Source: a virus
DNA length: 64,000 nucleotides
Virus record (IMG/VR): IMGVR_UViG_3300045976_000096
Coordinates: 1 to 64,000 of that record
Direction: 5' to 3' (one strand)
Shown: in pieces, positions 27,250 to 30,953 of the stretch
Position numbering within the stretch: the stretch's first letter is position 1
Layout of the letters: each line of letters begins with the position of its first letter
Notes under the pieces: generated by a model
The model's input: only the letters and a program-made list of their open reading frames with translations
Database searches by the model: none
Told to the model about the DNA's origin: nothing
Program-made: the position numbers and the translations under genes

Positions 27250-27504
27250 ATGAACGGTGGAACATACAGCGAAGCCTTGAAGGTCGGCTTCACCCCGGAG
27301 CAGGCGGGCTTCCTTGGTCGCATGAGCGGCGAGACCCGCGAAGAAGCCATCGAAGCGATCATGAAGAAGGGCATCGAAGCCGAGCACGCGCACAAGCGGG
27401 CGCGCGACGAGTGGATCATGAAGTGGGCCGACCGCGGCTATCGCGTCTGCGGCTACGTCGGTCTGTTCGCAGTGGCTTTCTGTGTCGGGAAGGCGTTCGC
27501 ATGA
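27250..27504 (+). CDS. Small membrane-anchored protein
   Basis: 84 residues. A soluble helical N-terminal part (FTPEQAGFLGRMSGETREEAIEAI) and a C-terminal hydrophobic anchor (VCGYVGLFAVAFCVGKAFA). Stop overlaps the DNA polymerase ATG (ATGA), so translation is coupled. Function unknown. Confidence 0.55.
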   Translation: MNGGTYSEALKVGFTPEQAGFLGRMSGETREEAIEAIMKKGIEAEHAHKRARDEWIMKWADRGYRVCGYVGLFAVAFCVGKAFA

Positions 27505-30500
27505 ACATTGCGCATGCACTTTCCGTCAGAAGCGATTTCAGTATCGGCCAATCGCTGCTGCAGGCGGACCACATCATCGAGGAAGCCAAGAAGCACGGCT
27601 ACGAATCGGTCGCGCTGGTGGACGACATGTCGATTCACAACCTCGTCGATTTCTCCAACCAGTGCAAGAAGGCTGGCATCAAGCCGATCATCGGCTGCCG
27701 CCTGCGCGTGGTGGATGACCCGACCTACAGGAAGCCGAGCAAGGCGTCCGGCGAGGTCGAGAAGCCGAACCCGCTCGTCATGCTCAAGGTCTATGCGGTC
27801 GACGAGACCGGCATCCAGAGCCTCTTGAAGCTGCTGACCCAGGCGAACACGCCCGAATATTTTTACTACCACTCGCGCGTCGGCTGGGCCGAGGTGATGG
27901 CGCTGGAAGGCGTGATCGTCACCACCGGCGACTTCTACAACGTCTTCGCGCATCCACGCTACAACGACATCTGCGGCAATTTGCTCGACCGCTTCAAGGA
28001 CCGCTTCTACGTGGAACTGGTGCCGATCGACACGCCGCTGTTCGACACCCTGAACGCCCGCGCGCTCAGGGAAGCCGAGGACATCGGCGCGCCCACGCTC
28101 GTCACCTATCCATTCATGTACCGCGATGACGCCGACGCCCCGACGCTGGAGGTGCTCAACGCGATCGCCACCCAGCAGAAGATGAGCGCACCGTGGCGTC
28201 CGCAGCAGTACGTGCAGGAGTTCGGCTTTCGGCCGGCGATCGACATCGGCAAGCGCATGGTCGCCGCCCACAAGCGCGCCGCGCAATACTGCGGCGTCAA
28301 CGCGCCCGACCTGTGGAAGGTCGGCCTGGCCAACATCGAGAAGGTCGCCCAGGCGTGTCAGTACGAATTCAAGAAGCAGCCGGTCTCGCTGCCGGTGATG
28401 GCGCCCAACGAGTTCGCCGCGCTGGGCCAGAAGTGCATCGAGGGCTGGAAGCGCCGTTTCGGTCAGCATGTACTGGGCCACCGCCCGAGTGCCGCCGACA
28501 TCCCCGCGTACCAGGAGCGCCTGAAATACGAGTTGGGCGTGCTGAAAAAGATGGGCTTCGCCGGCTACTTCCTGCTGGTCGAGGATCTTGTCATGTGGGC
28601 CAAGCAGAACGGCATCATCGTCGGGCCGGGCCGGGGTTCGGTCGGCGGCTCGCTGGTCGCCTATTTGATCGGCATCACCGACGTCGACCCGATCCGCTTC
28701 AACCTGCTGTTCGAGCGCTTCATCAACCCCGAGCGCCTGGACTTGCCCGACGCCGACCTCGACTTCATGTCGACCCGCCGCCACGAAGTCATCGAGTACC
28801 TGACCAAGAAGTATGGCGCCGACCGCGTGGCCGGCATTTCCAACTTCTCGACGCTGGCGTCGGCTTCCGCGCTGCGCGACGCCGGGCGCGTGTTCGACAT
28901 GGACATGGCCACGATGGCTGTGACCAAGCTGGTCCCGAAGGAGCACGGTCAGAGCTACAACCTGACCGACGCCGCCGACAAGGTGCCGGAGCTGGACAAG
29001 TTCCGCGCCGAACACGCCGACCTGTGGGCGCACGCCCTGAAACTGGAGGGCGTGATGCGCAGCTTCGGCCAGCACGCCGCAGGCACCGTGGTCGCCGGCG
29101 AGCCGCTGGTCAACCGCGCCGTGATCGAGACGCGCGCCGACGGCATCCCGGTCACGAACTGGGACAAGCGCGTGGTCGAGGACTGGGGCCTGGTCAAGAT
29201 GGACGTGCTGGGTCTGTCCACGCTCGACGTGCTCGACATCGCCCGCCAGTACATCAAGGACAGGCACGGCAAGGACGTCAGCTACGTCAACCTGCCGCTC
29301 GAGGAGCCAGATGTCATGGCGGCGTTCGCGCGCGGCGACACCACCGGCGTGTTCCAGTTCGAGTCGCCCGGTATGAGAAAACTCTTGCGCGACCTGGCCA
29401 AAGGTGGCGCGCTGACCTTCGAGGACATCACCGCCGCCACCGCGCTGTACCGGCCGGGTCCGATGGACTCGGGCATGCTCGAGGACTTCGTGGCCATCAA
29501 GCAGGGCCACAAGACGCCGTACTACGAGCACCCGAACATGGAAGCGGCACTGGGCGCTACCGGTGGCGTCGTGGTGTACCAGGAGCAGGTCATGCGCCTG
29601 GCGGTCGACCTGGCCGGTTTCACGGGCGCCGAAGCAGACCACCTGCGTAAAGCGATGGGCAAGAAGGACGCCGACAAGATGGCGGAAATGCGCGACAAGT
29701 GGGTGCAGGGTTGCCGCGCCACCTCTGGTATGGATGAAATCGGCGCGGGCCAGTTGTTCGACAAGATCGAAGCATTCGCCGGCTACGGCTTCAACCGCTC
29801 GCACTCGGTCGAGTACGCCATTATTTCCGTATGGACCATGTGGCTGCGGGTGCGCTACCCGGCCGAATACTTCGCCGCCTGCCTGTCGATCGTGGCGGAC
29901 GAGAAGCTGACGGGCCTCGTCAACGATGCGCGCGAGTGCGGCATCGAAGTGCTGCCGCCCGACATCAACATGTCCACCGACCGCTTCACCATTCCCGACG
30001 ACAAGCACCTGCTGGCGCCGTTCAGTAAGGTCATGGGTATCTCGGACAACACCGCCCGGCGCATCGCCGAACTGCGCGAGCAGAACCGCGGCTGGAAGGT
30101 CGTGCGCCAGAAGAAGAAGCGCGACGGCACCGTGGAAGACGTTTGGGGGCCGGACGAGGAGGCGCCCGTCAAGGGCCGCTTCGACACCATCGAGGAATTT
30201 CTACACACGGCCGCGCAGCCGGGCAGCAAGATCAATAGCCGCGTGGTCGAGAACCTGCGCACGGTCGGCGCGCTCGCCAGCATCGAACCGGGGTCCAAAC
30301 CGGCGCGCGACCTGTCGCGGCGAAAAGACCAGACCCAGCTGATGCCGGGCCTGATCGTCGACGCCGTGAAGGCCGACCGCACCACCGACGTCACGGAACC
30401 GTTCGTCAAGTCCAAGATCATCCACATCGTCCAGGACTACCGTAGCTGCGAGGCGTGCGACCTGGCCGGCAGCCCGCACCCGGCGATTCGCATGAAGTCC

Positions 30501-30953
30501 AACGTCAAGTTCATGGTGGTCTCCGACTGCCCGAACTGGAAAGAGGAAAAGGCCAACAAGCTGATGGAAGGCGACACCGCTGACTGCATCAAGCTCGCGA
30601 TCAAGGAAGCGAACCTGTCACCGGGCGACGGGTATTTCACGACCTTGGTGAAGGCCAAAAAGAACGACAAGTTCTTGACCAACGCCCAGCTGAATGGCTG
30701 TGCGCAGTTCTTGAACCGCGAACTGGAACTGATCAAGCCGCCGATCATCGTGGCGCTCGGCAGCGCGTCGATCAAACGCTTCATGCCGGGCTTGAAGGGC
30801 GGCACCACGGAGATGATCGGCAAGGCGGTCTACGACGCCAAGCTGGACGCCACGATCGTCTGCGGCTTGAACCCGGCCCAGATTTACCACGACCCGGCGA
30901 AGCAGCTGACGCTGAACGAAGTCTTCGCCAAGGTCGCCGAGATTCTGTCGTAA
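27501..30953 (+). CDS. DNA polymerase III alpha-like (C family) with C-terminal UDG-like domain
   Basis: 1,150 residues from ATG 27501. The N-terminal PHP domain (1-~240) is degenerate: the usual His-rich metal motifs are replaced (LSVRSDFSIG, ALVDDMS), so nuclease activity is probably lost. The C-family polymerase core is intact: PDADLDF at 416-422 (Asp419 and Asp421) and MDVLGL with Asp568, the three catalytic Asp. HhH-like segment near 840 (VMGISDNTARRIAEL). From ~975 a uracil-DNA-glycosylase-like domain follows: CEACDL (Cys983/986), then PPIIVALGSASIKRFMPG and a C-terminal GLNPAQIYHD. No tau-binding tail is seen. This is the replicative polymerase. Confidence 0.88.
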   Translation: MNIAHALSVRSDFSIGQSLLQADHIIEEAKKHGYESVALVDDMSIHNLVDFSNQCKKAGIKPIIGCRLRVVDDPTYRKPSKASGEVEKPNPLVMLKVYAVDETGIQSLLKLLTQANTPEYFYYHSRVGWAEVMALEGVIVTTGDFYNVFAHPRYNDICGNLLDRFKDRFYVELVPIDTPLFDTLNARALREAEDIGAPTLVTYPFMYRDDADAPTLEVLNAIATQQKMSAPWRPQQYVQEFGFRPAIDIGKRMVAAHKRAAQYCGVNAPDLWKVGLANIEKVAQACQYEFKKQPVSLPVMAPNEFAALGQKCIEGWKRRFGQHVLGHRPSAADIPAYQERLKYELGVLKKMGFAGYFLLVEDLVMWAKQNGIIVGPGRGSVGGSLVAYLIGITDVDPIRFNLLFERFINPERLDLPDADLDFMSTRRHEVIEYLTKKYGADRVAGISNFSTLASASALRDAGRVFDMDMATMAVTKLVPKEHGQSYNLTDAADKVPELDKFRAEHADLWAHALKLEGVMRSFGQHAAGTVVAGEPLVNRAVIETRADGIPVTNWDKRVVEDWGLVKMDVLGLSTLDVLDIARQYIKDRHGKDVSYVNLPLEEPDVMAAFARGDTTGVFQFESPGMRKLLRDLAKGGALTFEDITAATALYRPGPMDSGMLEDFVAIKQGHKTPYYEHPNMEAALGATGGVVVYQEQVMRLAVDLAGFTGAEADHLRKAMGKKDADKMAEMRDKWVQGCRATSGMDEIGAGQLFDKIEAFAGYGFNRSHSVEYAIISVWTMWLRVRYPAEYFAACLSIVADEKLTGLVNDARECGIEVLPPDINMSTDRFTIPDDKHLLAPFSKVMGISDNTARRIAELREQNRGWKVVRQKKKRDGTVEDVWGPDEEAPVKGRFDTIEEFLHTAAQPGSKINSRVVENLRTVGALASIEPGSKPARDLSRRKDQTQLMPGLIVDAVKADRTTDVTEPFVKSKIIHIVQDYRSCEACDLAGSPHPAIRMKSNVKFMVVSDCPNWKEEKANKLMEGDTADCIKLAIKEANLSPGDGYFTTLVKAKKNDKFLTNAQLNGCAQFLNRELELIKPPIIVALGSASIKRFMPGLKGGTTEMIGKAVYDAKLDATIVCGLNPAQIYHDPAKQLTLNEVFAKVAEILS

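Follow-up and report, generated by a model that had tools for sequence, protein, structure and literature searches.

What a uracil-DNA glycosylase (UDG) fold does at the end of a replicative DNA polymerase is the question raised by one gene in the 64,000-nucleotide stretch of viral DNA analysed here (hereafter, the window), which belongs to a 112,422-base virus record. The gene (27501..30953, + strand) opens with an ATG at 27501, the start Met being the same in relatives, and its 1150-aa open reading frame (ORF) encodes a DnaE-type C-family DNA polymerase with a C-terminal UDG-like domain. We profiled the domains and the residues of this protein over 79 non-redundant relatives.

Domain organization of the polymerase

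Like Pol III alpha of E. coli and T. aquaticus, the phage polymerase has a PHP domain (residues 8-173; 27522..28019, +; Pfam 2.3e-19), the polymerase core DNA_pol3_alpha (residues 308-571; 28422..29213, +; Pfam 3.6e-82), a fingers domain (residues 574-740; 29220..29720, +; Pfam 8.1e-52) and a helix-hairpin-helix region (residues 814-867; 29940..30101, +; Pfam HHH_6 1.2e-12). The three catalytic Asp that a sequence-only reading had described as intact are D417, D419 and D568, and all were kept in 79/79 relatives in the alignment. PHROG 405, a phage DNA polymerase family, matched nearly the whole length, and the core of the full-length model (pLDDT 89.9) matched bacterial Pol III alpha in Foldseek. 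The DNA_pol3_alpha and finger domains, together with the three Asp, mark the product as the C-family replicative polymerase of a large phage that is close to known phage-plasmids.

The metal ligands of the PHP domain are lost, as had been proposed, positions 10 and 42 being His in no relative. We rejected the dead PHP as a special feature of this phage, since wild-type E. coli alpha also has non-ligand residues there (R10 and F44; position 10 is Arg in the phage as well), and the E. coli structure 4jom, in which the aligned positions read His, is the '3mPHP' mutant. The dead PHP is also unsurprising because the phage encodes its own DnaQ-like RNase_T exonuclease (57883..58446, +; Pfam PF00929, 9.8e-21), the sole RNase_T match in the virus record and likely the proofreader for the polymerase. 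A GIY-YIG/NUMOD3 homing endonuclease ORF (window 58377-59201) overlaps the end of this exonuclease gene (57883-58446).

The C-terminal ~175 residues (about 976-1150; 30426..30950, +) were identified as UDG-like by Pfam, phmmer, AlphaFold2 and Foldseek. Pfam UDG (PF03167) matched residues 1001-1134 above its cut-off, with 4.1e-7 in the whole protein and 1.4e-8 for the domain alone; phmmer against the PDB matched the domain to TM0511 (9.6e-10), and its profile match to S. tokodaii UDG reached 1.4e-19. An AlphaFold2 model of residues 868-1150, built from a 70-sequence alignment, had a mean pLDDT of 90.1, and in the Foldseek comparison with the PDB the family-4 UDGs ranked first (1l9g, TMt 0.84; 1vk2, TMt 0.86), followed by UdgX. 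The same search also matched the phiLo family-A phage polymerase 9qhs, a structure for which no paper was found in the literature search. PF03167 and Foldseek thus agree on the alpha/beta fold of the UDG superfamily, and the UDG-like C-terminus first suggested from the letters is borne out by the predicted structure. The segment PPIIVALGSASIK (residues 1080-1092; 30738..30776, +), a strand and helix of the UDG-fold core, and the Cys pair 983/986 were both present as claimed; the pair is half of a C-C-H-C set rather than isolated.

E. coli alpha served as a control with the same Pfam library, which placed an OB fold at 1000-1072 and DNA_pol_IIIA_C at 1100-1151, whereas neither had a match in the phage polymerase. 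The UDG-like domain therefore replaces the OB and tau-binding domains that E. coli and T. aquaticus Pol III alpha carry at this place, in agreement with the replacement of the usual C-terminal region that had been proposed.

The loss of the usual clamp region, part of the earlier reading, agrees with the motifs: nothing in the phage polymerase corresponds to QADMF of E. coli, and a search for a conserved clamp motif of the E. coli type gave none. A conserved segment preceding the UDG domain, R940...QxELMPGL (30318..30353, +), is clamp-motif-like, and we rejected its QxELM (944-948) as a beta-clamp motif because it aligns with E. coli HRAALMNSL, not with QADMF, and because the model has a helix at its start. 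Separate family profiles were used to search for clamp, dUTPase, exonuclease and UDG; TIGR00663 was chosen for the clamp because PF02768 missed the annotated clamp of Vibrio phage MAR10. TIGR00663 detected this MAR10 control and no DnaN-like gene in the record of the window or in five relatives. The phage may have a divergent clamp, use the host clamp via another site, or have none. In MAR10 (L126 1-472, 475-1599) the sliding-clamp gene directly adjoins the gene for the UDG-PolA polymerase; a clamp can therefore coexist with a UDG domain, which is not always its substitute.

The former active site and a putative metal site

In family-4 UDGs, work on TthUDG has assigned roles in catalysis and uracil recognition to a Glu, an Asn and a His. 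The catalytic motif of active UDGs had been described as not evident in the phage domain, and alignment with TM0511, TthUDG and S. tokodaii UDG revealed that motifs 1-3 are all altered across the 79 relatives. Former motif 1 (V1007-N1012, VSDCPN; 30519..30536, +) changes from GExPG to SDCPN, the family-4 Glu becoming D1009, and this position is D in 78/79 relatives and E in the remaining one (1/79). Former motif 2 (Y1045-K1054; 30633..30662, +) changes from YITNVVKC-like to YFTTLVKA, and both the uracil-recognition Asn and the Fe-S Cys are gone: none of the 79 relatives has Asn at 1048 (T/S/A/G in 77), and none has Cys at 1052. Former motif 3 (N1124-P1125; 30870..30875, +) reads Asn-Pro for the family-4 His-Pro, with N in 66 of the 79. 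The curated family-4 cut-offs were missed as well (TIGR00758, 42.9 vs 125.3 bits; NF040953, 43.1 vs 250 bits).

The domain thus resembles family-4 UDGs in fold and overall sequence but differs from them in the catalytic and uracil-recognition residues, and in having C-C-H-C in place of four Cys. With all three of the key family-4 residues (Glu, Asn, His) replaced, the domain is unlikely to excise uracil, which is consistent with the binding-only domain considered in the sequence-only reading. The change of these residues throughout the C-family fusion is new here. D1009 and T1047 (78/79 each), K1051 (76/79) and K1054 (78/79) hardly vary, a sign that selection acts on the pocket, and in its conserved, rebuilt form it may retain some base recognition or an altered chemistry.

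The domain also has a putative metal site. C983-x-x-C986 (30447..30458, +) would provide ligands 1 and 2, H993 (30477..30479, +), which is not a ligand in family 4, would be ligand 3, and C1067 (30699..30701, +), aligned with the fourth family-4 Fe-S Cys, would be ligand 4. Family 4 has four Cys for its [4Fe-4S] cluster; three are present here, the motif-2 Cys missing in 79/79. C983/C986/H993/C1067 were complete in 49/79 relatives, and H993 was found in exactly the 49 that retain the three Cys; among the 30 with a broken set, 29 have none of the residues and one has a lone Cys. Position 1052, that of the third family-4 Cys, is A/S/V in 49/49 relatives with the set and Arg in 20/30 without it. 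On the polymerase-core tree, which was quickly built and has some long branches, the C-C-H-C state requires 5 changes, at least 3 of them forced by well-supported branches, and in one relative (L085) the whole set is gone inside a clade that otherwise retains it. This pattern is strong indirect evidence that the four residues form one coordinated site, putatively for zinc or Fe-S, in which His stands in for the lost Cys. The all-or-none distribution predicts a testable and probably new metal site that is set apart from the four-Cys cluster of family 4.

Distribution and genomic context of the fusion

The UDG-superfamily domain is part of the polymerase chain in the window, and the fusion was found in 79/79 distinct relatives examined, including SSU5, nickie, RHEph10 and Acinetobacter plasmids. 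The carriers include Acinetobacter plasmids (about 59-60% identity) and phages of Pseudomonas, Stenotrophomonas, Rhizobium, Salmonella, Escherichia and Klebsiella. Family-A phage polymerases, too, frequently carry UDG domains, and in the domain tree those linked to DnaE group together as one clade (support 100/99), which fits one fusion event apart from the family-A fusions. The domain swap on the phage replicase is real and widespread, and the data are consistent with one origin. A RefSeq note on the RHEph10 polymerase reads 'uracil-DNA glycosylase-like', so the domain was already annotated; no paper on a C-family (DnaE) UDG fusion was found in the literature searched, which is not proof of absence.

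The neighbouring replication genes encode a DnaB-like helicase, primase, ligase, CobT/CobS, SSB, 5'-3' exonuclease, RecA/UvsX, SbcCD, RuvC, ribonucleotide reductase and Thy1. The order CobT-CobS-DnaE-SSB-exonuclease-RecA is that of the SSU5/nickie/RHEph10-type replication module, and the gene order around the polymerase is the same in RHEph10, nickie, SSU5 and an Acinetobacter plasmid. The Acinetobacter plasmid with the fusion also encodes capsid and tail genes, bringing phage genes and plasmid replication/partition genes together. The CobT-/CobS-like genes, a cobaltochelatase-type pair (window 22465-25779), lie upstream of the polymerase and are also present in the relatives inspected. The gene directly downstream of the polymerase (window 31037-32290), with matches to PHROGs 4969 and 1069, is a candidate replisome partner.

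The DnaE proteins of SSU5, nickie, RHEph10 and the Acinetobacter phage-plasmids share the fusion and gene order with the window, but SSU5, RHEph10 and BUCTxx99 are without the C-C-H-C set, and SSU5 DnaE contains, near residue 740, an insertion of ~45 aa that the window polymerase lacks. Near the same residue a split divides the polymerase gene into two ORFs in L055 (5959-10339), L093 (5974-10238), L032 (2989-7244) and L073 (5965-9814), and also in the Acinetobacter plasmid NZ_CP034093 (H70). A third, homing-endonuclease-like ORF lies between the halves in L055, L093 and L032, and H70 carries a NUMOD4 annotation. Where the split halves have extra ends, these resemble the in-frame ~45-aa insertion of SSU5 (L027), and the halves may reassemble in trans.

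Possible roles of the domain and comparison with known systems

We lean, with moderate confidence, towards a non-excising module that holds DNA or docks a partner, substitutes for the OB/tau region and descends from an ancestral family-4-like UDG. A single event in an ancestral DnaE would have put such a UDG in place of the OB fold and tau-binding domain, and the fused domain would later have lost uracil excision. It could retain the DNA-binding groove of UDGs and act as a non-excising clip on the template or nascent duplex by the polymerase, or it could dock a phage replisome partner, thereby covering functions of the absent OB/tau region and perhaps those of a clamp. The rebuilt C-C-H-C metal site would brace the domain in most relatives, and proofreading would fall to the separate RNase_T exonuclease.

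Rather unlikely is a base-sensing role, likened to the template read-ahead of archaeal PolB yet built on a UDG fold, in which the pocket would capture a flipped-out uracil or modified base of the template and stall or redirect the polymerase. The nearly invariant D1009, T1047, K1051 and K1054 lie on the pocket side as such a role would have it, and the phiLo polymerase matched in its UDG-like region (9qhs) is titled 'with modified template'; however, the motif-2 Asn for uracil is lost in all relatives, and the genome encodes a Thy1-type thymidylate synthase while the genome search returned no dUTPase match. Base-modification genes were not noticed among the genes viewed, and nothing seen there pointed to a modified genome. 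The earlier suggestion that the domain reads uracil is not supported, and support was not found for its counterpart, a modified base in the template.

The conserved residues also bear on an unlikely reading of the domain as a pure protein-docking or structural remnant that attaches to a replisome partner such as a helicase or clamp loader and makes no DNA contact. The position of the domain at that of the tau-binding domain agrees with docking, as do the phage's own DnaB-like helicase and primase and the finding that catalysis plays no part when the UNG of MHV68 binds its polymerase and processivity factor (PMC10312458), but conservation of D1009, T1047, K1051 and K1054 on the former DNA- and base-contact side speaks against this reading. 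We consider it improbable, if conceivable, that the rebuilt pocket (D1009, T1047, K1051, N1124) and the C-C-H-C centre together form a polymerase sensor that regulates synthesis in response either to one particular base of the template or to the metal centre's state. An active glycosylase that removes bases during replication, with D1009 and N1124 replacing Glu and His, is very unlikely: it has a motif-1 acid (D1009, 78/79) and the motif-3 Asn-Pro that is also found in E. coli MUG, an enzyme that functions without the motif-2 Asn, but the MUG/TDG (family 2) motif 1, GINPG with its catalytic Asn, is absent (SDCPN, D in 78/79), every family-4 catalytic position is changed, the Fe-S Cys set is incomplete, and base removal tethered to the replicase would create abasic sites in its own template.

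A UDG fold with a part in replication has precedents in other systems. Publications already describe such domains on family-A phage polymerases (PMC5135824; PMC7412058), and for those of SPO1 and Shbh1 an aid to processivity was suggested (PMC5135824). SPO1 gp31, Shbh1, PaBG gp205, SM1, MAR10 and Lebethron have a UDG-superfamily domain on a phage polymerase as here, and in several of them motif 1 is altered as in the C-family domain. Their domain is at the N-terminus of a family-A polymerase, whereas ours is at the C-terminus of a family-C polymerase; several of them retain the motif-2 Cys and motif-3 His, and the DnaE-linked domains form their separate clade.

Vaccinia D4 is a family-1 UDG, a separate subunit bound through A20 and still an active glycosylase. 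According to PMC3946371, D4 belongs to the polymerase cofactor for processive synthesis, and there, too, a UDG fold is part of a viral replicase. UDG folds have joined viral replicative polymerases more than once, at the N-terminus of family A, at the C-terminus of family C and as the separate poxvirus subunit D4, a pattern that suggests this repair fold is in general use as a replication part. Given the related fusions on other phage polymerases, the C-family case is a variant rather than the first of its sort, and its wide spread in large phages and phage-plasmids offers a clean test of a glycosylase fold on a polymerase, probably without excision.
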